A stretch of 64,000 bases of DNA from Acholoe squamosa (Eukaryota > Annelida > Polychaeta > Phyllodocida > Polynoidae). The notes under the pieces are model-generated. The model was not told the origin of the DNA. It did no database searches and saw nothing but the letters and a program-made list of their open reading frames with translations. Shown piece after piece: positions 17,436 through 60,888 of the stretch; positions within the stretch are counted from its first letter, which is position 1; each line of letters begins with the position of its first letter. A program made the position numbers and the translations under genes. Location: assembly GCA_949317995.1 (NCBI GenBank), contig OX439035.1:4215227-4279226 (forward strand), read 5' to 3'.

Positions 17436-17504
17436 TGTGATGCATTTATGCATCAGGCCGAAAGGTTGAAGATTTTAATTAGGTCATTTCCCACGGAGAG
17501 GCAC

Positions 17505-20825: not shown

Positions 20826-21174
20826 GCTTCCATAGCCTACTTAAAAGGGTCTATATCTCCTCTTTCCTATCCCCTCAGGATGTGTGTGGTGCACATATGC
20901 GCGGGTTCCTGTCCAGAGGGTGGGACTTTTTAGAGGGAGGGAGGGAACTTCTTTTTTTTTTAGGAAAATATTTTTATTTGTCGTGAGCATCGTAAGTGGG
21001 CACGGCATGAATTTGTGATCACATTCTAAGATTTAGTGATCGGAAACCTAGATTCTTGTGCTGATGGACGTAAAAATAAATTGTTTTTCAGAACTCAGGA
21101 AAATCTTTTCCCATTCTCACAAAAAAATACACCAGGCCTCTGGACAGGAAAAGAAAATATTTTTAAGGGTGGCC
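20826..21174. mobile_element. Truncated SINE-like repeat fused to a 5'-truncated GGCCACCC MITE
   Basis: 20826-20903 matches the start of the 28505-28682 repeat ('cctatcccctcaggatgtgt'). It breaks at 'gcgcgggttcctgtccagag', where a GGCCACCC-family MITE takes over and runs to 'tttttaagggtggcc' at 21174. The MITE left terminus is missing. Confidence 0.65.
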
Positions 21175-21500
21175 TGATGCAGTCTGTCGGGTGGGCAATC
21201 TGACCCATACATCATCAAGACCAATGGTCGTGATGCATTAATACATTAGCGGTACCTGAAGGGTTTAGGGGGCGCTATGATGCAGTCTGGTGGGTGGGCA
21301 ATCTGACCCATACATCATCAAGACCAATGGTCGTGATGCATTAATGCATTAGGGGCGTTAAATCAGTTAACCCTTTCAAGACCAATAATGCAGTAATGCC
21401 CATTGGTCGTCATGATGCACGAATGCAGTCCCGAGGGTTGATACATTGGTGCATCACGCCAACCAATGGGCATGATGCGCTCCTGCATTAGCAGCCGTTA
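21175..21500. repeat. 103-bp tandem duplication of palindromic-repeat sequence plus another fragment
   Basis: 'gatgcagtctg' at 21176 recurs at 21279, and about 100 bp after each match closely ('ggtgggcaatctgaccca'). 21365-21500 is a further palindromic-family piece beginning 'taaccctttcaagaccaata'. Confidence 0.7.
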
Positions 21501-21913: not shown

Positions 21914-31620
<9,707 letters not shown>

Positions 31621-32280
31621 GTTGCCTGTTGTCTGCTCAATCTCTTTCCGTTGTCGCACTATGAATCGATCGAGGTGAGGCCAGTGGGATTTCTGCTAGG
31701 CCAACATTCTCCGCAGATCTGTAGATAGGGCAAAGTTCAACTTTATTCAGTCCCTACGATATAAGAAGATCACTTTCCATATTATTTTGATGAGATTTGA
31801 GGGCGCTATTTGGTGAACTCGAAGTTTTCGCAGTGTTTACGTTGAGATCATACGAAACTGATCCAGGAAGTTGCCATTATGTAACAAAGTCTCGAACCAG
31901 AATAAAAACAAAAATTTTCCTAAATAAAGGTTCAATTTTCACCAATTTGATGTGTATTCCACTTAAATTGACTTTAAATGACTGAATTTTGATCTATTGA
32001 AATAAATATTTACTTCCATGGACCCAACTCCTAACACTAGTTTTGGTTTGAGACTATAAATATGTACGGGTAGAAAATATTTAGCAGGTTTCAACTTTTG
32101 TCACTACTGCTGGTTTCTGGCTATTTCGCAGCAATTTATGTTTACTTCACATTATTGACCAGCGGAACCGCATGTCAAGGATTGTCAAGTGGTCAAAAGT
32201 TGCTTGGCGTTTCATCATTCCCGTTATTTCTATAAATTCAAGCAAAGAGACGTGTTTGTCAGATACATTGTGACTCCACT
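31621..32280. promoter_or_regulatory. Short divergent (head-to-head) intergenic region of EGLN and EPRS
   Basis: 660 bp separate the two start codons, so both 5' UTRs and core promoters must fit here or overlap. There is no clear TATA box for either gene. An ACGTG core at 32250-32254 fits a HIF response element half-site (RCGTG), but one 5-base match is weak and it lies only 26 bases before the EPRS ATG, possibly in the UTR. Confidence 0.5.
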
Positions 32281-35200
32281 ATGAAGTTACTGACATGTAA
32301 AAACACTCCTCCCATCGGTAAGTACATCACTACATGTATCATTGATGATTGTATGATCTAGAATGAGTTTTTGTCACTCACTGTCAGTGTGAGTGTCACT
32401 TGACTTGTGTCTAGACCTACCAACCGGTCCCTAGCCTGGCCTAGGCATATGATGTTTATAGGGACCGGCTCCTCTCTATTATGAGACCTTTCAGCTACTG
32501 CCCATGCACAATTCGTCCTGGGTTAATAAATTTCAATTTTTCCTATCTTACCATAATGATGATAATCATAGGATCCCCAAACTTTCAGCGAAGCTAAAAG
32601 AGGGTTGGATGTATGTATATCTAAATTTGTAGAAGGATTGGTTAAGGATTGAATGCATTAGAGTTGCGTGGAGAGTGCTCCCGCAGGACTGAAACATTTG
32701 CCAATATAAGTATCCCACACTGTACACAGCTCCTGAGCGGCAGACAGTGTGGAAACCCCCACACTATTTGTGTCAGACACTGACTCTGTCTGTGCAGTCT
32801 GTGGCACTGTCACTGTCACTTACTCCGTAGACACCCTGAGGGAACCTCAGAAACCAAAGGTGTCTGTTGTGTTGGTAGTCTATCTACTCTGCCAGATTGG
32901 CAGAGTGCCCAGTTTTCACGGAAGTACTTACTGTCAGGTCCAATGCTTTCACCAACACTTCCCTAAATTATTAATGTATATACAAATTTTAATGCACACA
33001 GCACTTGAAATACACAGAAGTTACAATCCAGGTCGTTTCTACTTTCCTCAGTAAACAGCATGGCCTTCCATGTTGGAGACTGCACTCTGAACATAAACAT
33101 GCCTGATTTATTGGAAATACTTCATGCTTCGACCACTTTAAGTTGCTGTACATGAAAACTACATGTTTGCAAATAGGAGGGACAATTTCCAGGAAGTGAC
33201 ATTGAGTACTTAGTTCAGAATAACCATGTGTTTGTGCCACTATAGACTTGTATACATGTTGGATCCTGCCTGTGAGCAGGCAGGTGTTTCGGCCTACTGT
33301 CACTTTGCCTGTGTCAAGCTGTGGGACAAGCCTAGAGGCTAGGCCAGAAGGCCCCTTGACCCGGGCCTCAGCCTCGACCAGCGGCTTAAATTCTAGTTCA
33401 ATAGCCTGGCATCACCTCTACATTTCACTGGATCATGGATGGATGTGTATTCCACTTAAATTGATTGAAGTGAGTCCACTGATTAAAGTGGGATGTGTAT
33501 TGGACCTTGTCCTAGCTCAGTAGCTGTACCAATTCAAAAGTATAATTCAGGCGGCCCTTAAAAATATGTCCGTTTCCTGTCCAGAGGGTGGAATTTTTCA
33601 GAACCATGAGGGAGGGAGGAAAAACATTTTTTTTAGGAAAATATTTTTATTTGTTATGAACTTCAAAAGGGGGACGGCATGAAATTGTCATGACATTTTA
33701 AGATTTTGTGATTGGAAACCTAGTTTCTTGTGCTGAAGGCGAAAAGAAAAATCTTTTTTTCAGAACTCAGGAAAAAAAATTCCCATTCTCACAAAAAATT
33801 TCACCAGGCCTCTGGACAGGAAACGAACATATTTTTAAGGGTGGCCTCAGACTTTAGTTGTTCAAAGGTCCATAGCCTAGGAAAATAAATTCTGCTGTAA
33901 TACGGGGCACAGGGCTTGTTTATAGTCTCACCCTTTTCTTGTCAAGAAGGCATTAAAAAGATGTTCACCGCAAATGGATCACAATTTTTTGGCCACTTAT
34001 ACTCGGAATTTCTTTGAAGTTTCAAGTGCCAGTGATGCCGAAATGACGCCGACTATTGCCGGTGTAGAATTGTAACGGCCAGCGTAGCCCCTTGGGGCGC
34101 AGGCCAAGATGGCCTGGCATGATCTCAGCTTTCCAATGGTGAAGAATTTTTCAAATTGGCCCATTAGAAGCAAAGATAGGGAAATTCTTGTGAATTTGTT
34201 TTACCGTAATCTCCTGCGTATAAGGCGCGTCTTATACGGGGGGTTTTAGTTCTCATTGGATCCACAAGGGGGACACCAAGACCTTTCTTTTGATATCTTA
34301 CATGCCCCGTTGGTCATAATATGACATAAGGGGGCCCAGGAGGGTCTGGGGTGGCCCAAGCTACCCATAGGTTTTTGAATTTTGAAAATTCATTCAGTAG
34401 AACCAAAGTTATGAATTTTTCATTTTTTTTGAAAATTTTCCAAAACTCTATGTGCGCCTTATACGCGGGCTGCGCCTTATACGCGGGAGATTACGGTATA
34501 TTTAAAAGTTTTCTTATTTCTTTGAGTTTAAATGGGTACATATGGCCTGTGTGAGAGGCCTATGGTAGGGTTCAGTGTTTTCGGCAACACTGAAGTGCAC
34601 AGGCCTCAGTAGAACTCACTGGTACCAACCTCCAGAAATGGCCGTGCCCTTTACACAATCCGCTACACCGACTTAGCTGGTTTAGTTAGCAGCCAATAAG
34701 ATAACACCAACTCTTTACTGCGTTCCTCCCAGGGGGCAGGTGGTACCCATCAGATAACTGTTATCAGTGATAACTGCTGGACATCAGCTTCAGCAATGGC
34801 CACGCCCATTGGACACTCCGCTACCTCAGTATAGTGTATAATGCTATATCCATTAACCTACAGGAGTTTTACTGACAGCTGAGTATGTCAAGGGAGACTT
34901 GGACGTCACGTTAGAGGAAGGCCAGGCCAACAACCTCATTGTCAACAGGTAAGATTTTATAGACAAATAATGGAATGAATAACCCGCAAATTCCCGAATA
35001 TAAGCCGCACCTTTATAAGGTGCTATAAGCTACATCTGCGGCTTTGTAGGTTTAGTGCTTTTTAAATGTAATTACATGTTATAAATGCTTGATGATAGTC
35101 TTAATGATACAATCGACTGGTTCACAGGGTGAAATTCGCTATGTTGATAATCTCTCCAAGGGGAAAAAATGACATGAAGGTGATTTAAAAAAAAGTGTAT

Positions 35201-37848
35201 AGTTACAATCAATCCTTACATGTAGTACCGTAAAACGCCACATATAAGCTGCGGCTTATAGGCCATTTCAGACTCTACTTACGGCTTATGTGATTTACCT
35301 AAACAAGGAGTGTGGCTTATAGGCCATTTCAGACTCTACTTACGGCTTATATGATTTACCTAAACAAGGAGTGTGGCTTATAGGCCATTTCAGACTCGAC
35401 TTACGGCTTATGTGATTTACCTAAACAAGGAGTGCGGCTTATAGGCCATTTCAGACTCTACTTACGGCTTATATGATTTACCTAAACAAGGAGTGTGGCT
35501 TATAGGCCATTTCAGACTCGACTTACGGCTTATATGATTTACCTAAACAAGGAGTGTGGCTTATAGGCCATTTCAGACTCTACTTACGGCTTATATGATT
35601 TACCTAAACAAGGAGTGCGGCTTATAGGCCGTTTCAGACTCTACTTACGGCTTATATGATTTACCTAAACAAGGAGTGTGGCTTATAGGCCATTTCAGAC
35701 TCGACTTACTGCTTATGTGATTTACCTAAACAAGGAGTGCGGCTTATAGGCCATTTCAGACTCTACTTACGGCTTATATGATTTACCTAAACAAGGAGTG
35801 CGGCTTATAGGCGAGGTTCTGTAAAAAGGCACTAAAAGAGCATTTTTCAAGCCCAAGGTGCGGCTACTGGTACTAGATTCTTCTAAAGTTAGGGTCGGGG
35901 CTTTATATGCGGGGGTTTTTTGCAGCACTTATATATCTCTGGTGCCGATGTTCCCATTCTCAATTGTGCAATCACCCCGTCTATGGGTGATATCCTTAGG
36001 CCACACCAAAAAATTAAGTTGGTCTTCGGATCGCCCTCTCCATATTTTCGGAAATACAAATTTTTTTTTCTATGATAAAAATCTTGTCTACGGATTTCGC
36101 TCGCTTCAGTTTCTACACGTTTTCTCACTTTCCCACCAAGGAATTCATTGGACGCCAAAAAATTCTTTTAAAAAAAAAAAAAAATTTGCTCGCTCGCACC
36201 ATTTTTTCAAAACCAAAATCCGTAGACCAACTTCCTGAAGTTTCATACACAAACATTTTAAGCACCCCAATATCTAAACACCCCTCTACTCGCTTTTGAG
36301 GAAATAAATTTTTTTTTGAGGAAATCATGTTGACTATGATCATGTCAAAAACAACTTAACGTATTTGCGCATAAAATGTATGTTTAGTAGTTAAGAGTTT
36401 AATTAGGCTTCAAAAATTGAAATATTTTGGTAAATTTAAGTCAAGGATATGAGCCAAAAGAGGGTGTGTGTGCTTGTGAGGGTATGTGCGCTTATTACGT
36501 CGAATGTGGTATGCCCGCCAGATGTCCAACAGTCTGAAGCGAGTTATTCAGAGATCTTGATGAGTCTTGTTAACTTTCAGCAATGTCTCGTTCAATGCGC
36601 CAGCCTCCATTTCGCGGTACTTGGCCAGGGCTGCTCCGGCTAAAGCTCTGTATGGGCAAAACAACCTGCAGCACTCTGAGGTATGTCTTTTCTCATGAAC
36701 TAACTGAGGTTTGTCTCTTTATCGGGAAGTAACAGAACCCCTGGTTATCCATGGTAATAGAAAACATGAACTAGTTGAGCCTTGACAATCTCATTGATTT
36801 ACGCTATCCCATAGTCCTCAGCTTGAAAAATAGAATTATACAGTAAAATTCCTTTAAAACAAAATTTCGTTTGCCCCAAATGAACTTCATAAAATTTCTA
36901 AAGTAAAATTGTCCTTTTATAATCAAATATGTCTACACAACATTAAGTGCTTTCAAATCTAGAAAATACAACATGCATAATGACAACACTTATCAAACAA
37001 ACTAGACATGGTCATATACGTATATAATTTCTACATAAAATCATATTTCTTGATTGGTATAGATATTGGCCTGCTTGCGAATTTTGGGATTGAACTGTTA
37101 TACTAATCCATTAATGTTTAACCAAGGTAACATGAAAACATTTAATAAAAAAAAAAAAAGAAAACACATAACATTACTATGTTTAGGTTGACCACTGGCT
37201 TGAGTTCAGTTACGGACGTCTCTCGTGTACCTCGGAGGTACAGGACGCGCTGCTTTACCTGGACCAGGTCCTTGGTCCCGTCACCTTCCTCGTCGGACAT
37301 GATGTCACCATCGCTGACTTCTCCGTCTGGGGAGTCCTCAGAGGTCAGTGTCAACCATGTCCATTGGTTTGCACCATACACCAGTGATGCTGTCCAGCAC
37401 CAATTGCTGGGGAGTCGAGCACCTCATTGATGTATCAGGCCACCGTTAAAAAACATAGCAGTTACCTGTCCACAGGGTGGGATTTTTTAGACCCATGAGG
37501 GAGGGAGGGAAAAACTTTTGTTTGAGAAAAACTAAACTTTTGTCATGAACATTAAAAGGGCTGCCATCAAGTTCATGTCATGAATATTGTTAAGTTCACA
37601 GTCCAGCTATTGTGTTTTTTTAATGCTAACATGTATCTGATATGTGGTTTCATAATCTGTTATTTGTAATAAATAGATATAGAAAATGAATTGTGTTTTC
37701 AGCGAGTCCACTGTGGGCCCAGCTCTTGGCGACTGGTGAGGCGCCTAAGAACGTGGCCCGTTACTACAAGTTCCTAGCCGCGCAGGACAAGTTTGTTACG
37801 GTCAATAAGAAAGTGCCTGAAGTGAAGGCACCAAATCAGAAACCCCAG
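32281..37848 (+). CDS. EPRS1: EPRS exons 1-5: N-terminal GST-like domain
   Basis: Exons: 32281-32317, 34864-34948, 36581-36680, 37187-37343, 37703-37848 (cumulative 175 codons). Start ATG at 32281 gives [13 protein letters not shown], then [38 protein letters not shown], then the GST-C signature-like [19 protein letters not shown] and [13 protein letters not shown]. This domain mediates docking in the multi-synthetase complex of animals. Exon 1 is only 37 nt; the first intron is 2.5 kb. The start is set by homology to the N terminus of animal EPRS. Confidence 0.94.
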
Positions 37849-40800
37849 GTAGGTGGGAGATTTCAGCACAGGTGATGTATGAATGCATCATGCCCATTGG
37901 TCGTCACAATGCATGAATGCATCACGCCCATTGGTCGTCACAATGCATGAATGCATCACGCCCATTGGGTGTCATGATGCATCAATGTATCATGCCCATT
38001 GGTAGTCATCATGCATGAATGCATCATGCCCATTTGTCGTCACAATGCATGAATGCATCACGCCCATTGGTCGTCATGATGCATGAATGCTTCATGCCCA
38101 TTGGGTGTCATGATGCATCAATGTATCATGCCCATTGGTAGTCATCATGCATGAATGCATCATGCCCATTGGTCGTCATGATGCATTGATGCATCATGCC
38201 CATTGGTAGTCATGATGCATGAATGCTTCATGCCCATTGGGTGTCATGATGCATGAATGCATCATGCCCATTGGTCGTCATGATGCATTAATGCATCATG
38301 CCCATTGGTCGTCATGATGCATGAATGCATCATGCCCATTGGTCGTCATGATGCATGAATGCATCATGCCCATTGGTCGTCACGATGCATTAATGCATCA
38401 TGCCCATTGGTCGTCACGATGCATGAATGCATCATGCCCATTGGTCGGCATGATGCATGAATGCATCATTCCCATTGGGTGTCATGATGCATCAATGCTT
38501 CATGCCCATTGGTCGGCATGATGCATTCATACTAGTAAGCACTTCATTAGCGGTCGTGCCCTCGTATATAAGGTGCACTCTAAGTTATTGACAATCTATA
38601 AGCTGCATCTTATCAATACATGTAGTGAGAAGCAGCTCCATTCCCGCTCATAGCCAATAAGCCGGTTCATGTATAAGGCGCCACATGTATCCAGAGATTT
38701 ACGGCACTAAGCCGAGATTTATCTGATATGAACCCTTCACACTATGGTATGAATAATGGTGTGATATTTTCCTCACTGCAGCAAAAAGAACGTAAGGAGG
38801 AGGGAAAGTTTATTGACCTGCCGGGAGCCGAGAAGGGCAAGGTGATCGTCCGATTCCCACCGGAGGCAAGCGGGTATGTAGTAGTACTGTTTTCATTGGC
38901 TCAGTGTATCTACTTAGTCTATACTGTCGGGTTGGCAGTGTCGTTTTCCAAGAGCAGTCATCCAGTTTCCAATCTCAATTTTCATTCAACATTTCCAAAT
39001 AAAGTTTCCAAAAACACATGCAGATGGATGAACAAGATGTTATTGTGTCCATCAGACACAAAAAAATGAAGAAAACCCGAAGTAAACCCACCATTTTTTT
39101 TTTTTTGTTTTTTGAAATAAGTAATGGTTTCAGGTCCAATTTTCCTTGTTGGGATGCCCCCATATATCTAACTACGAAAATGATTTCCCATTCAATGATT
39201 TCCCTCTGTTCTCATATAGATACTGCTGAGTATTTACTGGGCCTTCTGTGCTTCACCACACACCCAGTTTTCTATATTGTAGCTCTTTATGAATAACCTG
39301 AAAAAAACTCGTCTTCTTCCAGCTACCTGCATGTTGGTCATGCTAAGGCCGCGCTGCTAAACCAGTATTACCAGAATGCGTTTGAGGGAAAACTCATCAT
39401 GAGGTTTGACGATACAAACCCCGCCAAGGAAAGCTCCGAGTTTGAACAGGTATTTAGGAGATTATTATGACTAAATACACAAAATATACTCATTTAGAAA
39501 AGAATTATATTCCTTGCACTGCTATAAACACATGAATAAAAGTATTTGAATGAAAGAACTTAATGAATATTTTATGTGTACAACTATGATTTTGATAATC
39601 TCCATTACCTACTTAAATAAGAAAAAAAATCCTTATTATTACATAGAGTGAAAAATGAAATTTGGATAAAAAGAAGAAGCTTTGCAGCCATTCTTACACA
39701 AACAAAATGTAATTGAAATTTTAGTAAAAAAAAGATATTAATGATTTTTAAATGTATATTCCTAAATTTGAGAAAATTTCTTCCCTTTTTTTCCCACCCA
39801 TTACAGGTGATCCTTGAGGACCTTAAGATGCTGGGTATAAAGCCAGATATCTTCACGCACACGTCGGACAGCTTCGACCTGATCCAGTCGTATTGTGAGA
39901 AGATGTTGGCTAATGGGATGGCATACTGCGACGACACCGAGCCTGAACAGATGAAGAAGGAACGCGAGGAGCGTGCAGAGTCAGTCAACCGCAACAACAG
40001 TAAGTTTTACCGTAGTCTCTCGTGTCTTAAACGCAGGGTTTTAATTTTCCCTGGATCCGCAAGAGGAAAACTAAGACCTTTCTTTTGATATTTTACACTT
40101 CCACTAAGTCCTAATAGGACATAGGGGGGGTTCAGGGGGGTCCTGGAGCCCTAGCTACACATACCTTTTTCAATTTTAAAAATCCATTCAGTGGAACAAA
40201 AGTTACGAATTTTTCATTTCTTTGACTTTATTCTAAAACTCTAGGTGTGTCTTATATGTGGGATGCGCCTTATACACGGGAGATTATGGTACATTTATAG
40301 GCACACACTGGAAGAATAATACTGAAACAAGAGTAACTTTTACATGTAAAGATCTATGTGCCGGTTTTTGCCGACTCGTATGCATAATGCATTAACGAAA
40401 TGCACCACATCGGTGAGTACTATGGGCGAGCTGTCAAATTTGATTACCATATTTGATGCAATGAGCACCCAGGGTTCTGATAAAATTATTTCTATGATAC
40501 TTTGGGTTGGACATCGAATATGGTAGATCATGTGCTGAATTACTAATTAATGAAATAAAACAAAAATCAAGAACTATAAACATTTTTCAGCCCCAGAGAA
40601 GAACTTCTCCATGTGGGAGGAAATGAAGAAGGGGACGGAGTTTGGACAGAAATGTGCCGTGCGTGCCAAGATAGACATGAAGTCAGACAACGGCTGTATG
40701 CGGGACCCGACCATTTACCGCTGTAAGAACGAGGTCCATGTACGCACCGGCACCAAGTATAAGTATGTATCTGTATTAACATAAAAACTTTACGTACCGT

Positions 40801-51600: not shown

Positions 51601-53112
51601 GGGTCCTACAAGTCATGGCATAAAAATATGTCAGGGAAAGTCATAGAATTTCATTGTATGTCCTCAAAAGTCATGGAAAATGAGAAAAATTATCTTTTGA
51701 TGGAATTTCTTGAACATATTCAATGTTCCTCCCTTGAATGAATACATTTCTGTAGTGGGTGACTTTGCCTGCTCATGTCCAAAAGATTATAATTATAAAT
51801 CAGTTTGATTTTTGTCATGGAAATGTCATGTAATTTCAATCAGTGAATTTTGTGGGAACCATGTTTAAAATTTTAAACCTGATGCCTTAACATTACAGGA
51901 TGAAGTACAGGCTGCGGTGAAGATCCTGCTCGACCTTAAAGCTGAGTACAAGAAGGCAACCGGTGCCGACTGGAAACCTGGTGCTACTCCTGCCCCCGCT
52001 GCCACCCCTGCCCCCGCTGCTGCGGCCGGGTCTGCTGCCAGCGACCTGGACGCCAAAATCACAGAGCAGGGAACCAAGGTCCGCAACCTGAAGAGTGCTA
52101 AGGCCGCAAAGGTAATTAGAACTAGAGATGATGGGGATGACCATCTTCAATAGCGAAGCAAAACCAACCCTTCCCCCCCCCCTTTTTTTTTAGACTTCAA
52201 AACAGGTAGATTCTCACAATTTTGCAGGCAACTCTTGTAACAAATAAAGTTGCCACCGGTCAGTTAAATGTCAGTAAGGCCACACCAAAAAAATAAGTTG
52301 GTCTACGGATCGCCCTCTCCATATAGATACTTTTTTTTTTCTTTGAAAACAATTTTGTCTACAGATTTCGCTCGCTTCAGTTTCTACAAGTTTTCTCTTT
52401 GTGATGTTTGGCAAAATTTAAAAAAACAAATTTGTTTGCTTGCCTCAATTTCCCAGCAAGGAATCCATTGGATGCCAAAAACTTCTTTAAAAAAAATAAA
52501 ATAAAATTTGCTCGCTCGCACCATTTTTTCAAAACCAAAATCTGTAAACCAACTTATTTTTTTTGTTGTTTTTTTTCTTCTTTAAAGATCAGTAAAGACG
52601 TGTTGTTTTATTTTTCTTTAAAGATCAGACAAGAGTCGGTTAAAATAAGTTAATACCTTGATGGATAGACAATGGAAACCCTGAAAAGGACCTTATGCCC
52701 AGAAACCATAGTCTCTCCTAACCTTTTATAACAGTTAGTGGAGGTAAAATCAAACAAACCAAACCCTGAAATAAATTCATGTTTTATGAATAAGACACAT
52801 GATTTACAACTCTCTACCACAGATACGTTAATAAATCACAGCATTCTTTTCTTCTTTTGCCTCTCTTGCAGAACTTGAAATATGCAGATACAACCTTGTT
52901 GCACTGATACAATGCATACATTATAATGATACACCTTTTTCTACCTTCAGGATGAGGTCCAGGCAGCTGTTAAGGTCCTGTTGGACCTAAAAGCTGAATA
53001 TAAGAAAGCAACTGGAGCCGAGTGGAAACCAGGCGTTACCCCTGCTGCTGCAGGTGTAACCCCCGTAGCTGCATCGACCACCGCGGCAGCACCGGCCGGG
53101 GATAACGCTAAG
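32281..53112 (+). CDS. EPRS1: Glutamyl-(prolyl)-tRNA synthetase, EPRS type: GluRS half plus five WHEP domains, 23 exons
   Basis: Charges tRNA-Glu with glutamate in the cytosol. In most animals the same chain also holds prolyl-tRNA synthetase and sits in the multi-synthetase complex. All 23 exons have GT-AG borders and compatible phases and join into 1,106 codons with no stop. Order: GST-like domain (1-175), class I catalytic core (HVGH at 209-212, MSKRK at 431-435), anticodon-binding domain (about 477-720), Lys-rich linker, five WHEP repeats (about 748-1080), then an Ala/Pro tail ending in DNAK. Strong identity to animal EPRS runs throughout (for example [19 protein letters not shown] and [11 protein letters not shown]). 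The ProRS half was not recognised between 53,113 and 64,000. Read-through past the last donor would add nine residues and stop at 53137-53139. Introns carry many MITEs. Confidence 0.97.
33553..33846. mobile_element. GGCCACCC-family MITE in EPRS intron 1
   Basis: 'ggcccttaaaaatatgtccg' at the left, inverted at the right as 'aacatatttttaagggtggc'. 'ctgtccagaggg' and 'ctctggacagg' are mirrored inside. Full length, about 294 bp. Confidence 0.8.
34202..34498. mobile_element. Intact CCGTAATCTCC-family MITE with TA target duplication
   Basis: 'taccgtaatctcctgcgtat' and 'acgcgggagattacggta' are inverted ends, flanked by TA as in Tc1/mariner-type insertions. It interrupts another repeat: the flanks 'gtgaatttgttt' and 'tatttaaaag' are joined in the related copy near 29120 ('gtgaatttgtttcatatata'). 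Confidence 0.82.
35235..35812. repeat. 61-bp tandem array in EPRS intron 2, about 9.5 copies
   Basis: Unit 'gtgtggcttataggccattt' through 'atgatttacctaaacaagga'. Copies differ at a few sites (gtgcgg/gtgtgg, ctctac/ctcgac, tatatg/tatgtg). Confidence 0.93.
35999..36233. mobile_element. GGCCACACCAAAAAA-family MITE, right end lost
   Basis: Begins 'ggccacaccaaaaaattaag' and ends inside 'aaaatccgtagaccaacttc' without the terminal 'ttggtgtggcc'. Same family as 52278-52563, 54458-54756 and 54945-55240. Confidence 0.7.
37438..37600. mobile_element. Half of a GGCCACCC-family MITE in EPRS intron 4
   Basis: 'ggccaccgttaaaaaacata', then 'acctgtccacagggtgggat' and 'gagggagggaggg'. The right half is missing. 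Confidence 0.6.
37860..38530. repeat. 34-bp tandem array of the TGATGCAT motif in EPRS intron 5
   Basis: About 19 copies of 'gcccattggtcgtcatgatg' plus 'catgaatgcatcat', period 34. The array starts about 12 bases after the exon 5 donor. Each unit contains the core of the dispersed palindromic element, so the array looks like local amplification of that core. Confidence 0.92.
38782..45013 (+). CDS. EPRS1: EPRS exons 6-13: class I GluRS catalytic core
   Basis: Exons: 38782-38873, 39323-39449, 39807-39999, 40591-40762, 42780-42904, 43429-43537, 44387-44471, 44843-45013 (residues 176-533). Exons 6-7 carry [20 protein letters not shown] and the HIGH-type HVGH that binds ATP; exon 7 also has [12 protein letters not shown]; exon 9 [11 protein letters not shown] and MRDPTIYRC; exon 10 [20 protein letters not shown]; exon 11 the KMSKS-type [13 protein letters not shown]; exon 12 [17 protein letters not shown]. 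All key motifs are intact, so the enzyme should be active. Confidence 0.96.
40008..40291. mobile_element. CCGTAATC-family MITE starting two bases after the exon 8 splice donor hexamer
   Basis: The donor is gtaagt at 40000-40005; 'taccgtagtctctcgtgtct' begins at 40008. The right end is 'acacgggagattatggta'. Interior as in 34202-34498 ('ccctggatccgcaag'). Confidence 0.78.
40763..42779. other. EPRS intron 9, contents
   Basis: 41445-41567 is a 123-bp MITE with 'gggagtggtcattttttaac' inverted at the right as 'taaaaaaatgaccactccct'. 42151-42395 is a palindromic element. 42600-42765 is a diverged SINE-like copy ('catgaatatggccttagctg'). The rest is AT-rich. Confidence 0.6.
42151..42395. repeat. Full-length palindromic TGATGCAT element, EPRS intron 9
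   Basis: Ends 'ttaaccctttaaggaccgct' and 'agcagccctttaagggttaa' are inverted, with two internal hairpins as in the 48170-48427 copy. Confidence 0.78.
43538..44386. other. EPRS intron 11, contents
   Basis: 43915-44105 holds a diverged palindromic element ('gcaccaatgaagtggtggta' paired with 'ctagcacttcattggagc'). 44105-44160 has a direct duplication of 'aataagcctttaaagggata'. Otherwise featureless. Confidence 0.5.
45014..45915. other. EPRS intron 13: CT microsatellite and SINE-like repeat
   Basis: 45596-45641 is a (CT)n run of over 20 units, continuing as imperfect CT-rich sequence to about 45690. 45745-45895 is a SINE-like copy ending 'gaaatggcgttaaacatcta', only 20 bases before the exon 14 acceptor. 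45270-45390 is a dispersed repeat shared with 54185-54310. Confidence 0.75.
45916..48157 (+). CDS. EPRS1: EPRS exons 14-17: anticodon-binding domain
   Basis: Exons: 45916-46052, 46871-47075, 47318-47430, 48043-48157 (residues 534-723). They encode [55 protein letters not shown], then [18 protein letters not shown] and [13 protein letters not shown]. These match the C-terminal beta-barrel anticodon-binding region of eukaryotic GluRS. The last exon runs into a Lys/Ala-rich linker. Confidence 0.95.
46114..46398. mobile_element. CCGTAATC-family MITE, EPRS intron 14
   Basis: 'tatcgtaatatcccgcttat' and 'atgcgggagattacggta' ends; interior 'ggttttagttctctttggat'. Confidence 0.72.
46435..46735. mobile_element. 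GGCCACCC-family MITE, EPRS intron 14
   Basis: 'ggccaccatcaaaaatatcc' at the left and 'catattttcaaggatggcc' at the right; it follows the previous MITE after 36 bases. Confidence 0.72.
48170..48427. repeat. Best-preserved palindromic TGATGCAT element, EPRS intron 17
   Basis: Inverted ends 'aaccctttacggactgctga' and 'tcagcagccctgaaaaagtt'. Hairpin 1 pairs 'gcaccaatgaagtgctggcg' with 'cgccagcacttcattggtgc' around 'agactgct'. Hairpin 2 pairs 'atgtagccctggcg' with 'caccaaggctacat'. No coding capacity; it looks like a MITE or foldback element. Confidence 0.8.
48739..53112 (+). CDS. EPRS1: EPRS exons 18-23: five tandem WHEP domains
   Basis: Exons: 48739-48885, 49134-49340, 49949-50155, 51325-51537, 51899-52111, 52951-53112 (residues 724-1106). 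Each WHEP helix-turn-helix is split at the same place by a phase-0 intron: helix 1 '[15 protein letters not shown]' closes one exon, helix 2 '[19 protein letters not shown]' opens the next, followed by TGQDWKPG and an Ala/Pro linker. Four middle exons (207, 207, 213, 213 nt) are symmetrical repeat units; 19, 20 and 21 are almost identical in DNA. WHEP domains bind RNA and, in vertebrates, the GAIT complex. Exon 23 has helix 2 only and ends [10 protein letters not shown] at donor 'gtaaaa'. Confidence 0.96.
52278..52563. mobile_element. GGCCACACC-family MITE, EPRS intron 22
   Basis: 'ggccacaccaaaaaaataag' at the left; the right part 'aaatctgtaaaccaacttat' with a T-run, terminal bases lost. Confidence 0.7.
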
Positions 53113-54457: not shown

Positions 54458-54756
54458 GGCCACACCAAAATAAAAAGTTTGTCTACGGACTTTGGTTTTA
54501 AAAAAATGGTGCGAGCAAGCAAATTTTTTTTTTTCCATTTATGAATTTTTTTGCGTCCAATGGATTCTTTGCTGGAAAAGTGAGGCGAGCGGAAAAAAAA
54601 TATTTAAAAAAGAAATTTGCCAAAGATCACAAAGAGAAAACTTGTAGAAAGGGAACCAAGCGAAATCCGTAGACAAGATTCTTTTCAAAGAAATTTGTAT
54701 TTCTGAAAATGTGGAGAGGGCGATCCATAGACCAACTTATTTTTTTTGGTGTTGCC
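54458..54756. mobile_element. GGCCACACC-family MITE
   Basis: 'ggccacaccaaaataaaaag' at the left, 'accaacttattttttttggt' plus 'gttgcc' at the right. Inner 'aaaaatggtgcgagcaagca'. Confidence 0.75.
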
Positions 54757-54944
54757 TTATAATAGTTCTAGCACTTAAATATAGGTTAGGACCTATCTCA
54801 TTTAAACCAGAAAGTGTACCCAAGTACTTTAGCTAGCCTAGTACTTTACCTTAATAACAACAGGATATATTGCCAAAAAAAAAACCTGTTTCAAACCATC
54901 GAAAATTAAGAGAACCTTTTTGTGTGGCAATAGAATTTAGCTTG

Positions 54945-55240
54945 GGCCACACCAAAAAATTAAGTTGGTCTACGGATTTTGGTTTTGAAAAAATGGTGCG
55001 AGCAATTTTTTTTTTTTTAAGAATTTTTTTAGCGTCCAATGGATTCTTTGCTCAAAAAGTGAGGCGAGCGAGAAAATTTTATTTTAAAAAAAAAATGTTG
55101 CCAAACATCACAAAGAAAACTTGTAGAAAGTGAAGCGAGCGAAATCCGTAGACAAGATTTTTTTCAAAGAAAAATAAATTTGTATTTCCGAAAATATGGA
55201 GAGGGAAATCCATAGACCAACTTATTTTTTTGGTGTGGCC
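54945..55240. mobile_element. GGCCACACC-family MITE, complete
   Basis: 'ggccacaccaaaaaattaag' is inverted at the right as 'cttatttttttggtgtggcc'. It lies 188 bases from a sister copy in the same orientation. Confidence 0.82.
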
Positions 55241-55980
55241 TTGTTTGCTTTTTTTGGTGGTTTTCATTTATTTTGTTGTTTTTTTTTCACGGGAGTTGAA
55301 GGAATAGGAAAATGAGGAAATGCAAGTGTGTTTCATCATTGATTATCAGACAATTTATTTAGTCTCTTGCTTCATCATTTCATCATGCTCACTATGTTAT
55401 GTAACCCTGTATTTACACCAAATATATATTGGATAAACCAGAGATACCGTTTTCTTTTACGAAGGTTGAAGGAATAAGAAAATGAGGTAATGTGTGTCTG
55501 TTTCATCATTGATTATCAGACAATTTATCTAGTCTCTTGCTTCATCATTTCATCATGCTCACTGTGTAATTGTATTTACAACAAATGTGTAGTGGATATG
55601 GCACAGATAAAAATAGGGCGGGTGAATCCACTACTGTAATCGCACAGTATATCAAAGATGTGTCTTACATGTAAATCTACTGTGCCTTATATAGAACCTC
55701 CCAAAAGATGGGGTGAGACTTATAGGCCTAGTAAACCTTCAAAAACCAGGCCCCAGGTGCCTTATACAGGGGTGTGAAATCTCCGCGGAAACACGGAATT
55801 CCGCGGTTTTGATGCTCACAGGGACCATTCCTGAGATCTATGCAAATCCACTGAGAAAATGAATAACCATTTATATGGGGGGGGGGTCCATAGAATTTTA
55901 TCAAATGTTCAGATCTGTTGTCATCTGAAATCTGAGTATCCGAGTAGTAGTTCTTAGCCTGCCTGTACAAGAGAAGATAG

Positions 55981-55990
55981 CATGTGTCCA
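55981..55990. repeat. Left target-site duplication of the PLE
   Basis: CATGTGTCCA, matching 60879-60888 exactly. Confidence 0.88.
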
Positions 55991-56350
55991 TTTTTTTTCT
56001 CTCCATATACACTTTACGAGTCAATAATAATTTGTTCAGGTGGACTCACCCCATTTGGGAGCCTTCTTGCCAGCTCTAAAAATAACTTTACACACCCCAT
56101 GTGTTGGGAGCCATCTTACAGACTGCAGTTACCATTTGTTATGATTAGAATTTTACTAGTTGTGAAGGAGCCTGAAAAGGATCCGTTGGGCAAATCAGTC
56201 CTATTGAGTTCAATAATAAATTAGCCTTGACGAAGACTTGAAAAAGTCGAAACATGTCGGCACAGTTAATTTTCATTTTTCAGTGAATTATTTATTAGGA
56301 ACAATACGAGCATAAGTGAGGTGGTTTTGGGAATATTTAACACCTTTCAA
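55991..56350 (+). repeat. Left pseudo-LTR of the PLE
   Basis: Runs from T8 'ctctccatatacacttta' to 'gaatatttaacacctttcaa'. Contains a hammerhead-like motif at 56218-56272. Leader 56351-56467 follows before the first frame. Confidence 0.93.
56218..56272 (+). ncRNA. Hammerhead-ribozyme-like motif in the left pseudo-LTR
   Basis: Stem I: AAATTAGCC can pair with GGC...TAATTT after the cleavage position. Core TTGACGA stands where CUGANGA is expected; stem II GACTT/AAGTC is capped by GAAA; then GAAAC...GUC as in hammerheads with a tiny stem III. Hammerheads are known in PLE terminal repeats. Departures: U replaces the core C, and one extra A separates the core from stem II, so activity is uncertain. 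Confidence 0.42.
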
Positions 56351-56467
56351 TATTTTGACATATACCCTCAGCATCCCCGAGTGGGATCCTACCTTCACTA
56401 CCGCCAAGAGAAACCCGAGGTTTAGTGAGCAAAGCCCTTCACCGGGCCTAAAGATCCCTCCAAAAAC

Positions 56468-57244
56468 ATGTCTCACACGAATTCTAGGTCAGGATCACCT
56501 ACGGGCAAAAGTGGTCAAACACCTACCGGCGGCCCCTCAAGTTCTCGTAGTGACACATCCTTTGTAACACCCACTGAAAATGATAGAAAAAGAACCAGGA
56601 GAGAGTTTGAAACCGAAGATAACCGTTTAGAGAACGACTTCACAAATGGCCAAGGTCAAGGCCGTGGTCGCGGCCGAGGCCGAGGCCGTGGTCGAGGATG
56701 CGGTCGTCAAGGCAACGCTACCAACATAACAACCGAGGACGCGGAATACAGAAGGCTCCCGCGCCAACAATCCACCAACCCCCGCCTGATTCAAATCCTC
56801 AATAACACCAACCGTGTGTGGTACAAGACATTAAAAAAGCTTGCCCTGGGTATCACTAAAGCCTCCCATCACTCTAATTTCCTCCAGTCCCATCTGGAGA
56901 AGCACACCTGCCCGAAAGGGCTTATTGTGAATGTCAATGCCCAAATACCAGATATCACTGCTGAATTCTCCATTTCTTGGGAAACAGCGCACTGTGACTT
57001 TAGCACAGAGCTTACCAAAATCCTGAAAAAATTCTGGGTTGATCGAGAGAGTAAATTAAAATCAGATTACGACAATACGGTTGAAAGAGTCAGAGCATCA
57101 TGCTCCCCAGAACACTGCCAGATCCTACTGGAGGCGGTCCAAGAGGAACAGAACCAGCTGGCCAAAGAGCTCCTAGAAAGGGCAGAAGGAAAAATAGGCA
57201 CTACCGGAAATTTGATCACTCCAAACACAACTCCGATACAATAG
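56468..57244 (+). CDS. PLE ORF1: N-terminal domain with an RG-rich tract
   Basis: 258 residues from ATG 56468. Residues 1-60 are Ser/Thr-rich and disordered. An RG/GRGRG tract (about 63-78) suggests RNA binding. Then comes SHHSNFLQSHLEKHTCPKGL and an acidic, coiled-coil-like C terminus (LAKELLERAEGK). The 'FL..H....CPKGL' part matches the region that normally precedes RT in PLE proteins. The frame overlaps the RT frame by 145 nt and lies one base out of register. Most likely ORF1 and ORF2 were one protein. Confidence 0.8.
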   Translation: MSHTNSRSGSPTGKSGQTPTGGPSSSRSDTSFVTPTENDRKRTRREFETEDNRLENDFTNGQGQGRGRGRGRGRGRGCGRQGNATNITTEDAEYRRLPRQQSTNPRLIQILNNTNRVWYKTLKKLALGITKASHHSNFLQSHLEKHTCPKGLIVNVNAQIPDITAEFSISWETAHCDFSTELTKILKKFWVDRESKLKSDYDNTVERVRASCSPEHCQILLEAVQEEQNQLAKELLERAEGKIGTTGNLITPNTTPIQ

Positions 57245-59430
57245 TAAATTTGTCTGACCACCAATTATCAGATGACGAGAGGTCTTTACTATCAAAGGGT
57301 CTTAGCTTCATACCAACCCCAAAGGACCCACATCCAGCACACACATTGCAAGATTGTCTCACATTCACTAGAAAAATTCGCCTCACAGAATTCTTCAAAG
57401 ATGAAGAAAGACCACCCACTGAAATCAATTTCAGACCTGAACTTCCACCTAAAACATGGACCCCCATGTCGGGCAAGAATCAATTTGTGGACTGCTTCGC
57501 CACTACAGTCATCCATCAAGTCTCGTCCCTTAATAAAACCCACCACACTAAGGATAACCTCACTCCAGGAGAGAGATCAGCCCTAAAGGACTTGTCCCAA
57601 AACCAGGACATCATAATTAAATCTGCAGATAAGGGAGGCGCTGTAGTCATACAAAATACGACAGATTATGAGAGAGAATGTCTCAGACAACTAGAAAACC
57701 CCACCTTCTATGAAGAAGTCCATAGGGACTATACAGACCGCTTTAACATCAAATTACTTCAACAATTGAACATCCTGGAAACCTGTGGACACATAACTAA
57801 AAAAGAGAAGTTGGCTCTATCCAATCAGAATCCCAGAACACCCATCTTCTACACACTTCCCAAGATACATAAAGCTAATGTACCAGGGCGTCCTATTGTA
57901 TCGGCCTGCAGTGGACCCACAGAAAAAATCAGCTCCTATGTTGACAAGATCATAAAACCCCTTGCCCAATCACTGCCAAGTTACATCAAAGACACTACAG
58001 ATTTTATCAATCACATAGAAGCCCTACCCCCATTGGACCAGGAGGATGTTCTAATGACCATTGACGTCTCTGCACTCTATACCTCCATCCCACATAGTGA
58101 AGGTATACAAGCCGCCGTGGAATACCTTAACAGTAGAGTAGCACAAGACCCCCACACGTTCATTATTGCTAAAATGATTCATATCATCCTCACCTCCAAT
58201 GGATTCCGCTTCAAAGATAGATTCTTCATTCAGATTCATGGCACTGCCATGGGCACACGTATGGCACCCAATTTTGCAAACTTGTTCATGGGTTCATTAG
58301 AGAAAAAAGTCCTACAACAGTCGCCAGTAAAACCAAAGGTTTGGCTACGGTTCATAGACGATATATTTACTATAGTACCAGGTGAAGATGCAGCTAGGGA
58401 TTTCATGGAATTCCTCAACCACTTCCATGACACAATCAAGTTCACAGGGGAACATAGTTCCACTGAAGTCAACTTTCTAGACACCACGGTCTTCATAACA
58501 CCGGAAAGGAAACTGAGCACCAAACTCTATGTGAAACCTACAGACGCCCACACCTATTTAAACTTCCATTCCTACCATCCTATGGCATTAAAGAGGTCAA
58601 TCCCATTCTCTCAACTCTTGAGATTGAAAAAAATCGATGCAAGGGCAGAAGATTTTAACAGAGACAGTCAAAGAATGCTAGCCACATTCCGCCGCCATGG
58701 ATACCCTAACAGGATCCTAAAGGTAGCCTTAGCGAAGGCTAATGCACTGGAAAGAAAAAACCTACTTCACCCCATGGAGATACAAACATCTGAGGTAGTT
58801 ACCTATACTACAGAGTACAATCCCAAGCACATGCCAATCCCAAAGATCCTTAGGGAAAACATCACAATTTTAACAGCAGACCCTTCCAGAAACCATCGTC
58901 ATCCACCTAGAATGATGATCGCTTACAAGAAATCGAGAAACTTGAAGAGTGCCCTCATGCACACTCCACACCCACATGTGTCACTACCACCAGGATCATA
59001 CCGTTGCGGAAAGTGCTCATTCTGCACCCGAGTCCTAATCCAAACTGTGATCACCAGCCACTCCAACGGACGCTCCTACAGAATTGTAGGTCACAATGAC
59101 TGCAACACCAATAATGTTATTTATGTCCTGTCCTGCACAAGATGTGGCCAACAATATGTGGGCCAGACATCACAACCACTGAAGAAACGCCTGGGCCAAC
59201 ACCTAAATGGTATTGACGCGGAACTGAGAAGAAATCCCCGGACCCCCGTAGAGGCAACACCTGTCACTGAACATTTTAACTCCTCTACTGGTTGTGGGAA
59301 GACATCACTGAGAGTAACCATCGTAGACAGCACAGCACAGACAACGGCATCAATGCTACGCCTAGAGGAGTCATGGATACGTCTCTTAGCAACATGGCAT
59401 CCCCATGGCATCAACGTCAAGACTCAATAA
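57100..59430 (+). CDS. PLE ORF2: reverse transcriptase with C-terminal GIY-YIG endonuclease
   Basis: 776 codons from the first in-frame ATG; real similarity starts near NRHYRKF (residue 32) and DTIVNLSDHQLSDDE. RT motifs: FYTLPKIHK and GRPIVS (253-270), TIDVSALYTSIP with D322, IHGTAMGTRMAPNFANLFMG, WLRFIDDIF with the D420-D421 pair, VNFLDT, and KLYVKPTDAHTYLNFHSYHP. A CGKCSFC cluster (636-642) precedes the nuclease: VIYVLSC (673-679), CGQQYVGQT (683-690), R697, E756 in LEESWIRLL. All catalytic residues are present, so the protein should be functional if translated. Its N terminus probably comes from ORF1 by frameshift, or was lost by a one-base deletion. Confidence 0.94.
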   Translation: MLPRTLPDPTGGGPRGTEPAGQRAPRKGRRKNRHYRKFDHSKHNSDTIVNLSDHQLSDDERSLLSKGLSFIPTPKDPHPAHTLQDCLTFTRKIRLTEFFKDEERPPTEINFRPELPPKTWTPMSGKNQFVDCFATTVIHQVSSLNKTHHTKDNLTPGERSALKDLSQNQDIIIKSADKGGAVVIQNTTDYERECLRQLENPTFYEEVHRDYTDRFNIKLLQQLNILETCGHITKKEKLALSNQNPRTPIFYTLPKIHKANVPGRPIVSACSGPTEKISSYVDKIIKPLAQSLPSYIKDTTDFINHIEALPPLDQEDVLMTIDVSALYTSIPHSEGIQAAVEYLNSRVAQDPHTFIIAKMIHIILTSNGFRFKDRFFIQIHGTAMGTRMAPNFANLFMGSLEKKVLQQSPVKPKVWLRFIDDIFTIVPGEDAARDFMEFLNHFHDTIKFTGEHSSTEVNFLDTTVFITPERKLSTKLYVKPTDAHTYLNFHSYHPMALKRSIPFSQLLRLKKIDARAEDFNRDSQRMLATFRRHGYPNRILKVALAKANALERKNLLHPMEIQTSEVVTYTTEYNPKHMPIPKILRENITILTADPSRNHRHPPRMMIAYKKSRNLKSALMHTPHPHVSLPPGSYRCGKCSFCTRVLIQTVITSHSNGRSYRIVGHNDCNTNNVIYVLSCTRCGQQYVGQTSQPLKKRLGQHLNGIDAELRRNPRTPVEATPVTEHFNSSTGCGKTSLRVTIVDSTAQTTASMLRLEESWIRLLATWHPHGINVKTQ

Positions 59431-59482
59431 CGTCACGTCACTATGACGTCACGTCTATTCCACTTCCACGTCGAGGCCCAAC

Positions 59483-60439
59483 ATGAACTACGCTGTAGCC
59501 TGCGCACTTTGTGACTTAAATCTAAAGTCTAAACAGGCTTTAAGACTCCACTTAAATAGTACCCACGGACAAACAAAGGTAACATGTGCCTATTGCGGGA
59601 GTATTTTCGATAGGAAGTCAAACTTAAATCGCCATTTACGCAGGAAACATCCACATCAAAAGCCCGACCATGGATTACTGTACTTGAAACCACCGCCTCT
59701 ACAACCTCCTGGGGCTGTCAACAAAAATGCAATTTCATATAAACTCTCCAGGAAACAGACGAAGATAGCCACTCGTCAGAGTTATTGTAAACAATGGAAC
59801 CTCAGTGATGAAATGATCCCCAAAGTAAAATTCAGAGTAGTCCCAGCCACTCGTGACAAAGACAAGCCCAAAAGTCCACCACCTCAGGAATTTATCAACG
59901 CCGTGAAAACCCCTATACTAGGTAAATTCAATCCCATACCTGAATCTTCTTCAAAACGGCAACCTTATATACACCCACAGGCCACAAGACTGCCCAGCGT
60001 CATTCCAGTATTCAATACTGAACTCCAGGACTATATGAAAATAACACCACCTGCAACAATATTCAGGCCTCCAATTATGGATAGCATTGATGACACCACC
60101 AAGAAGGAGGGCACACCAATAATACCATGGTCACCTGATCTATTATCACCTATGAAAAATTTGAGCACTGAGGAAAAAGAATTCCTGACAATAGACTATG
60201 ACACTGCCTGTGGAACTCTAGGCCTAGACCTTCACTCCGCCAAAGAGCCTAACAAAACTGGTCCCACCTCATCACCTAAAGACCCACCAGAGGACGTATC
60301 GTCTGGTTGCGACATCTTAGACTGGGTTAACATCCCATGGCCTGACATGGAGTACCCACCAGTATTGTTCAACAATGAAAAAGACCTCCCTATCACTTCC
60401 AGAGAGGATAGAAAGCTACTAGTCTTCAAAGATATCTGA
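59483..60439 (+). CDS. PLE ORF3: accessory protein with two C2H2 zinc fingers
   Basis: 318 residues from ATG 59483, 52 bases after ORF2 stops and in a different frame. Two classical fingers open the protein: C7-x2-C10-x12-H23-x4-H28 and C35-x2-C38-x12-H51-x4-H56, with basic HLRRKH. The rest is Pro/Lys-rich and then acidic (TEEKEFLTIDYDTACG), probably disordered. It lies inside the element between the RT and the right pseudo-LTR. A separate zinc-finger ORF is not part of the usual PLE layout I know. It may bind target DNA or element RNA, or be captured host sequence. Function is inference. Confidence 0.8.
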   Translation: MNYAVACALCDLNLKSKQALRLHLNSTHGQTKVTCAYCGSIFDRKSNLNRHLRRKHPHQKPDHGLLYLKPPPLQPPGAVNKNAISYKLSRKQTKIATRQSYCKQWNLSDEMIPKVKFRVVPATRDKDKPKSPPPQEFINAVKTPILGKFNPIPESSSKRQPYIHPQATRLPSVIPVFNTELQDYMKITPPATIFRPPIMDSIDDTTKKEGTPIIPWSPDLLSPMKNLSTEEKEFLTIDYDTACGTLGLDLHSAKEPNKTGPTSSPKDPPEDVSSGCDILDWVNIPWPDMEYPPVLFNNEKDLPITSREDRKLLVFKDI

Positions 60440-60519
60440 ATTGGGACATATGACTCTTTATGTGACCTGTGATAAGAAACTGTGATATAAATTATTCTAC
60501 CCAGGGCAACCTGACAATG

Positions 60520-60878
60520 TTTTTTTCTCTCCATATACACTTTACGAGTCAATAATAATTTGTTCAGGTGGACTCACCCCATTTGGGAGCCTTCTTGCCA
60601 GCTCTAAAAATAACTTTACACACCCCATGTGTTGGGAGCCATCTTACAGACTGCAGTTACCATTTGTTATGATTAGAATTTTACTAGTTGTGAAGGAGCC
60701 TGAAAAGGATCCGTTGGGCAAATCAGTCCTATTGAGTTCAATAATAAATTAGCCTTGACGAAGACTTGAAAAAGTCGAAACATGTCGGCACAGTTAATTT
60801 TCATTTTTCAGTGAATTATTTATTAGGAACAATACGAGCATAAGTGAGGTGGTTTTGGGAATATTTAACACCTTTCAA
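60520..60878 (+). repeat. Right pseudo-LTR of the PLE
   Basis: Identical by eye to 55991-56350 except for one fewer T at the start. Hammerhead-like motif at 60746-60800. Confidence 0.93.
60746..60800 (+). ncRNA. Hammerhead-ribozyme-like motif in the right pseudo-LTR
   Basis: Same sequence as 56218-56272. Two copies in direct orientation could release a unit-length RNA if the motif cleaves. Confidence 0.42.
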
Positions 60879-60888
60879 CATGTGTCCA
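60879..60888. repeat. Right target-site duplication of the PLE
   Basis: CATGTGTCCA, matching 55981-55990 exactly. Confidence 0.88.

Follow-up and report, generated by a model that had tools for sequence, protein, structure and literature searches.

Neptune-like Penelope-like elements (PLEs) reportedly encode a reverse transcriptase (RT) and a GIY-YIG endonuclease (EN) with a Cys-rich domain between the two. Esterase open reading frames (ORFs) are described for those of fish and molluscs in the available part of PMC5408684, and Neptune-like PLEs are also mentioned in the available part of PMC3846280. Minimal type I hammerheads without helix III are known in the pseudo-long terminal repeats (pLTRs) of PLEs (available parts of PMC7761336 and PMC6155905), and the later steps of the scheme for pLTR formation in PLEs were left unvalidated in PMC11167929. 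Here, a window of 64,000 nucleotides (64 kb) from the polychaete Acholoe squamosa (assembly GCA_949317995.1, contig OX439035.1, positions 4,215,227 to 4,279,226 of the forward strand) was analysed, in which positions 55,991 to 60,878 are almost certainly occupied by a PLE, which looks to be of the Neptune type by its Cys-rich linker between RT and EN. The insertion is recent and unbroken. Judging from relatives in the same genome, its lineage probably has two further conserved genes in addition to a hammerhead-type RNA motif with an altered core pair.

When the two pLTRs of the element were compared, 359 of 359 bases were identical, and only the leading T-run differed (8 T in the left copy, 7 T in the right). 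With no differences over 359 bases, the 95 % upper bound for pLTR divergence is 0.83 %. The element is flanked by a perfect 10-bp target site duplication (TSD), CATGTGTCCA, which was the longest exact match between the two 100-bp flanking stretches compared; the chance of a match for one given 10-mer pair is about 1e-6. No further fragments of the element were found elsewhere in the window by blastn or tblastn. The initial annotation had called a very young PLE with pLTRs alike over about 359 bp save one T, a perfect target duplication and intact RT and endonuclease motifs, and all of this was borne out. ORF1, ORF3 and the ribozyme-like motif, which are described below, were absent from it.

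Measured from stop to stop, the open frames of ORF1, RT-EN and ORF3 comprise 271, 781 and 330 codons, respectively, and the longest forward frame obtained by chance was 238 codons (2000 first-order Markov (Markov-1) sequences of the length of the element body). The RT-EN product matched RVT_1 (E-value 1.3e-9) and GIY-YIG (E-value 7.9e-7), both above the Pfam cut-off, and the GIY-YIG domain (PF01541) was placed at amino acids (aa) 672-763, C-terminal to the RT in the same ORF. The RT motifs found in this ORF together with the RVT_1 match were aligned only with copies from the same genome, and we take them to be of the PLE type. Only these two domains exceeded the Pfam cut-offs in the RT ORF; RNase H and integrase, as in an LTR retrotransposon, were not among them. 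PLEs with permuted domains (Naiad/Chlamys type) have the EN N-terminal to the RT, which is not the order observed here. ORF3 contains a C2H2 match (Pfam E-value 2.7e-7), and its two fingers are similar to those found in C2H2 proteins of known structure, CTCF among them. No Pfam match to an esterase was found in the ORFs of the element. Extra ORFs as such are not new, since esterases are known in Neptune-like PLEs (PMC5408684, available part). An AlphaFold2 single-sequence model of RT-EN had a mean pLDDT (predicted local distance difference test) of 34.7 and was not used.

The initial annotation had proposed a search of the same genome for other copies and a comparison of their pLTRs. When this was carried out with an RT probe (57400-58900) on the 1.48-Gb assembly (63 contigs), 40 of 87 candidates were scored and 49 matches obtained; many related families came to light. 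Among the scored matches, identity was 100 % for the window copy itself, then 82 % (partial) and 81 %, falling to 65 %. Of the 48 non-self matches, 21 were covered by fetching twenty stretches (L010-L029), each about 10 kb long (the matches C7:29635047 and C18:21507822 were passed over though ranking above some of those fetched). These stretches together with the window are the 21 loci referred to below. RT-EN was detectable in all 20 relatives, ORF3 in 19 and ORF1 in 15; the five without detectable ORF1 (L011, L021, L023, L025 and L027) likewise gave no pLTR pair. All three ORFs are unbroken in 10 of the 21 loci (window, L010, L013, L015, L016, L017, L018, L019, L024 and L029), and the other 11 are shortened or broken. 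Inside its RT region, the RT-EN ORF of L012 has an internal duplication: query aa 323-442 have two matches, both within a single open frame.

In an alignment of the 10 unbroken copies, nearly all inspected RT and EN positions were invariant, as was the linker C-x2-C-x2-C ... C ... C-x2-C between the two domains (10/10). The comparison of window and L010 gave nonsynonymous (dN) and synonymous (dS) divergences of 0.054 and 0.53 for ORF1 (ratio 0.10), 0.056 and 1.16 for RT (ratio 0.048), and 0.157 and 1.55 for ORF3 (ratio 0.10). Most other pairs were saturated. Of 45 pairs per gene, two each for RT and ORF3 and 29 for ORF1 had a dS under 2. The median dN/dS of ORF1 was 0.22; dS is lowered in this gene because its last 48 codons overlap RT. 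In the case of ORF3, window versus L024 gave a dN/dS of 0.38 at a dS of 2.05. The relatives keep two C2H2 fingers in ORF3 as well as a block near the C-terminus, which reads IPWPxxEYPPVxF ... SREDR among the closer families and takes a looser form in L029. The RT frame is -1 to ORF1 in 15 of the 16 loci in which both were placed, the exception being L028 with a broken RT frame, and RT-EN may be expressed by internal initiation, frameshift or splicing. Outside this genome, no relatives were found in viral contigs by protein, hammerhead pattern or motif-B pattern, in phages and plasmids by tblastn, or in scans of prokaryote contigs. A motif-B pattern match in Corynebacterium (L001) was rejected as chance, with 10 identical residues and no RT-EN nearby.

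Both pLTRs are present in 16 of the 21 loci. Judged by eye, 15 of these 16 copies begin at a T-run on the left, and 12 end on the right just after CTTTCA or a sequence close to it (the last bases of L010 merge with its TSD). At most a few bases of the leader occur at the right end in any of the 16. By a rough count, the T-run is of unequal length on the two sides in nine. Adjacent TSDs of at least 9 bp were observed in nine copies (window 10, L010 10, L012 9, L014 9, L015 10, L016 14, L017 16, L020 10 and L029 11 bp). Left and right pLTRs of the same copy are 98.6-100 % identical in all 16. When the right pLTRs of different copies were compared (120 pairs), only L013/L014 and L010/L012 reached 97 %, the next pair being at 84.6 % and the median at 57 %. 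Thus, the pLTRs are made alike at or soon after each transposition, and their separate inheritance is disfavoured, as pLTRs within copies have not drifted apart in the way families have. In the L010/L012 family, four internal left-right differences are each private to one of the four pLTRs, and two further differing columns sit at the TSD junction. A third pLTR-like piece with a ribozyme-like motif was noticed in L014 (minus strand, 865-994), about 2 kb downstream of the element.

A pLTR probe yielded 40 matches from 40 scored candidates out of 94: two at 100 % (the window copy), four at 84 % (L010 and L012) and the remaining pieces at 92 % or less. Position 352-359 of the 359 was reached by 35 of the 40, and three stop at 347-348. 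For 20 pieces that were fetched, all matches end at 356-365 of a probe consisting of pLTR and leader. Beside the match ends of L035, L036, L037 and L040 (inserts of 122, 124, 131 and 88 bp) TSDs of 12-13 bp were found, and L044 (236 bp) has a less sure TSD of 10 bp. The weak TSD matches of L047, L050 and L052 were not counted, and a 25-bp 'TSD' of L046 was dropped as spurious (6-bp spacing). These short pieces support the view that the RT starts at the 3' end of the pLTR and that its products are truncated on the 5' side, similar to what was measured for the Anolis PLE (PMC11167929). The 5' ends of L035, L036 and L037 (12-13 bp TSDs) fall inside the 5' strand of the hammerhead-like motif.

We propose that transposition would proceed from an RNA beginning in the U-run of the left pLTR. 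ORF1 and RT-EN would be read from it, the latter by internal initiation at the overlap ATG or by a frameshift; ORF1 would coat the RNA and ORF3 would bind nucleic acid through its fingers. The GIY-YIG domain would make staggered cuts, about 10 bp apart, in AT-rich DNA, and the RT would start at an internal site corresponding to the pLTR end, much as measured for the Anolis PLE (PMC11167929). Running to the RNA 5' end at the U-run, it would make the first pLTR, then jump to an RNA 3' end and copy to the 5' end, giving the body and the second pLTR. The outcome would be a pLTR-body-pLTR unit whose ends are fixed and whose two pLTRs match; products made without a jump, or ended early, would be seen as short 3'-anchored pLTR pieces. 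Template jumping is known from R2. We hold priming at the pLTR 3' end to be very likely and the origin of both pLTRs from one template to be likely; a template jump specifically is put forward as a tentative choice. The reading as a whole, a recently inserted, unbroken Neptune-type PLE of a three-protein lineage that moves in this way, is favoured on balance.

Several observations weigh against this reading. The 5' end of the RNA is placed from DNA ends alone, and TSDs were called without a shuffle control. The left end of L024 is not at the T-run, that of L022 is not pinned by a TSD, the T-run of L013 has 26 T on the left and 9 on the right, and the right ends of L017, L024, L026 and L028 deviate from CTTTCA. 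TSDs are weak or absent in several two-pLTR copies (an 8-bp match in L013, ends in a microsatellite in L019, none convincing in L018, L022, L024, L026 and L028). Two of the 40 pLTR matches end at position 275, neither of them among the fetched pieces, and 14 of the 20 fetched pieces lack a convincing TSD, that of one more being spurious. Of 15 aligned overlaps, 12 share the position of the RT-frame ATG, and L018, L019 and L022 have CTG there; conservation of this ATG is weak evidence, since a conserved Cys codon of ORF1 overlaps with it. A classic -1 slippery heptamer was not recognised at the ORF1/RT overlap.

A single template could also serve without a jump if the RT made more than one pass over it, the template being either a tandem transcript or an RNA circularised through the hammerhead. 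Tandem or partial-tandem arrangements have been described for PLEs (PMC11167929, PMC8969392), the pLTRs retain a covarying hammerhead, and the near-identity of pLTRs within copies would be expected as well. However, the 16 two-pLTR copies are single units, and a complete tandem array was seen in none of the 10-kb stretches, the third pLTR-like piece of L014 notwithstanding; a circular template offers no plain reason to halt at the T-run on the second pass only, and the ribozyme core of the window is non-canonical. We consider this route possible and doubtful.

The motif in each pLTR of the window reads GCC-UUGACGA-A-GACUU-GAAA-AAGUC-GAAAC-AUGUC-GGC, with stem I (GCC/GGC), a 5-bp stem II with a GAAA loop, the core UUGACGA...GAAAC...GUC, and U3.G8. 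A strict hammerhead scan, with stem II abutting A9, gave no match in the window. When one unpaired A was allowed, a setting chosen after the motif had been seen, two matches were found in the window, compared with five when both strands of 100 Markov-1 sequences, each of 64 kb, were scanned. The motif does not stand out when judged only by how its hairpin folds (z -1.77). For covariation, 14 aligned motifs from the 16 two-pLTR copies were used, L012 and L014 being omitted as repeats of L010 and L013. Pairing cells amounted to 94.4 %, against 77.6 % in shuffles (0/500 as high) and 26-57 % in slid versions, with stem I of L028 and L029, mis-set by the alignment, counted as broken. Cells changed on both sides were likewise in excess (28 vs 8.7 in shuffles; 0/500 as high). 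Pairs with a change on both sides (6 vs 4.8; 100/500 as high) and further pair types (10 vs 12.3; 497/500 as high) were not raised. The motif thus agrees with a minimal type I hammerhead in fold and covariation and differs from it in the core pair.

This pair, 3-8, matters because cleavage is lost with either single mutation, C3G or G8C, and partly regained when the two are combined (PMC11167929). It is U-A in 10, C-G in three and U-G in one of the 14 aligned motifs. Over 32 readable loci (19 of the 21 long loci and 13 of the 20 pieces, same-family copies counted apart), U-A was found in 23, U-G in four including the window, C-G in five (L024, L025, L028, L029 and L050) and C-A in none. The C-G state is basal on an RT tree that covers sequences of this genome only and was rooted by choice on L028/L029. 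U3-A8 is predicted to keep the pairing, and deamination could have driven the second core change, as C7-G8 is a CpG in the window. In the literature search we found no natural U3-A8 hammerhead; its coverage is incomplete and priority unproven.

The motif might instead be a decaying relic, in which activity was lost through two core changes, C3 to U and, at the CpG, G8 to A, and only the hairpin was kept. Of the 41 loci examined, 28 lack C3-G8 though readable, or are unreadable only in part, 27 of the 32 readable ones have U3, the window has the U3.G8 wobble rather than C3-G8, and Rfam gave no hammerhead match. Stems I and II covary, however, a C3-A8 mismatch occurs in none of the 32 readable loci, and GAAAC and the cleavage region are largely preserved. 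We regard decay as a minority explanation. No firmer is the joint proposal that three-ORF Neptune PLEs remake both pLTRs from one template at each transposition, the RT starting near the RNA 5' region, running off the 5' end and jumping, and also carry a natural hammerhead that works and in which U3-A8 took the place of C3-G8 via the U3.G8 step seen in the window; it is offered as a speculative combination.

Among the scored matches the window family is a single copy, with the nearest RT core at 81-82 %, the nearest full pLTR at 84 % and other pieces at no more than 92 %. Three other families have two copies each at 99.1-99.8 % identity (L010/L012, L013/L014 and L016/L021). The initial annotation had inferred an active or recently active family, which needs correction, as no second window-family copy appeared in the scored set; the three two-copy families suggest that the wider lineage has moved recently. 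It had also called full-length copies uncommon; 16 of the 21 loci have both pLTRs, in a sample drawn with an internal RT probe, which favours long copies. Many young, few-copied and mutually distant families fit low-frequency insertions with rapid loss. A recent arrival of the window family by horizontal transfer would explain a single young copy without close kin, and a dS to L010 of 0.5-1.5 agrees with it. However, many families of this genome show a like pattern, which low-frequency insertion and quick loss explain without repeated transfer, and related pLTR pieces at 85-92 % are present in the genome. We find such a transfer unlikely.

Two pLTRs inherited separately on a read-through RNA and homogenised later by gene conversion would likewise be identical left and right, but all 16 copies are at 98.6 % or above and the L010/L012 differences are private, so that this course of events is improbable. 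ORF3 as a passenger host gene caught by this one copy, like the Pen1 host-DNA spacers of Adineta vaga (PMC3846280, available part), would suit its place between EN and right pLTR, where the Pen1 spacer sits, and its host-like fingers, but such a capture is ruled out for practical purposes by ORF3 in 19 of 20 relatives, the dN/dS of 0.10 against L010, and the conserved fingers and C-terminal block. ORF3 may have an old host origin.

Table 1 Features of the element in the 64-kb window
Feature	Position	Strand	Remarks
TSD, left copy CATGTGTCCA	55981..55990	.	exact repeat comparison
Extra T, left end	55991..55991	+	T-run 8 left vs 7 right
Left pLTR, 359 bp	55992..56350	+	identical to right pLTR
Minimal hammerhead-like motif, left pLTR	56224..56261	+	fold scan; covariation in relatives
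Leader between pLTR and ORF1	56351..56467	+	absent from right end
ORF1, 258 aa, RG-rich tract then conserved domain	56468..57244	+	no Pfam family above cut-off
RT-EN ORF, 776 aa	57100..59430	+	-1 frame to ORF1; 145-nt overlap 57100-57244
RT core motifs	57856..58485	+	LPKIHK, GRPIVSA, TIDVSALYTSI, GTAMGTRMAP, RFIDDIF, VNFLDT
Cys-rich linker	59005..59145	+	C636-x2-C639-x2-C642...C668...C679-x2-C682; invariant in 10/10 unbroken copies
GIY-YIG endonuclease domain	59113..59421	+	R697, H701, E756, N772 invariant in 10/10 unbroken copies
ORF3, 318 aa	59483..60439	+	two C2H2 fingers (~aa 7-56); conserved C-terminal block from ~60311
Right pLTR, 359 bp, T-run to CTTTCAA	60520..60878	+	identical to left pLTR
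Hammerhead-like motif, right pLTR	60752..60789	+	fold scan
TSD, right copy	60879..60888	.	exact repeat comparison

Other features were also noted in the window. An exon of an EGLN1/PHD2-like HIF prolyl hydroxylase with a MYND finger lies at 30145-31695 (minus strand; match to Egl nine homolog 1, E-value 1e-23), the homology ending after GRTKVSV, apparently at the exon end. Repeats resembling miniature inverted-repeat transposable elements (MITEs), up to about 290 bp long and with inverted ends GGCCACACCAAAAAA...AAGTTGGTC, occur in both orientations at 52276-52566, 54475-54757, 54951-55242 and 35998-36233, three of them within 4 kb to the left of the PLE. A dispersed repeat of about 300 bp with inverted ends (80-83 % identity) was found at 15323-15617, 20906-21175 and 33549-33850. 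A 102-bp tandem array occupies 5801-9941 (about 39 copies, 95 % matches), and further long arrays lie at 1-506, 3130-4126, 17499-18623, 35253-35812 and 37873-38526.

With many young and unbroken families in one genome, whose ends are fixed and whose pLTRs match within each copy, separate inheritance, a tandem or circular template and a template jump can be told apart by comparing DNA. The layout with three ORFs provides RT-EN with candidate partners for binding RNA and DNA, and the C-G, U-G and U-A states of pair 3-8 in one genome are a natural test of what the hammerhead core needs.

Compared with Neptune-like PLEs, the element of the window has RT, GIY-YIG and the intervening Cys-rich domain in common, and its extra ORFs are an RG-rich ORF1 overlapping RT-EN at -1 and, downstream of EN, an ORF3 with C2H2 fingers. 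The literature search, whose coverage is incomplete, turned up no PLE with these two ORFs together, and priority is unproven. PAc, a Poseidon PLE of Anolis carolinensis (PMC11167929), shares RT and EN as well as a pLTR with a hammerhead motif, and its genomic ends match RT starts internal to the RNA, as is proposed here. It belongs to the Penelope/Poseidon clade and has one ORF beginning at the ribozyme and tandem copies, whereas the window lineage has three ORFs, a pLTR that does not code for ORF1, and single units in the copies examined. As far as the available text of PMC3846280 goes, the Penelope families of Adineta vaga share low copy number, TSDs of 9-10 bp and pLTRs; they belong to the Penelope/Perere group, with a Pen2a pLTR reaching into the ORF and with inverted pLTRs, and their Pen1 spacers are unique host DNA, unlike the conserved ORF3 here. 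The Terminons/Athena elements have a PLE-type RT, as is taken to be the case here, and share several further ORFs and hammerhead motifs; unlike the element of the window, they are described in the available parts of PMC6431247, PMC5718144 and PMC5408684 as telomere-associated, endonuclease-deficient and up to 40 kb long.

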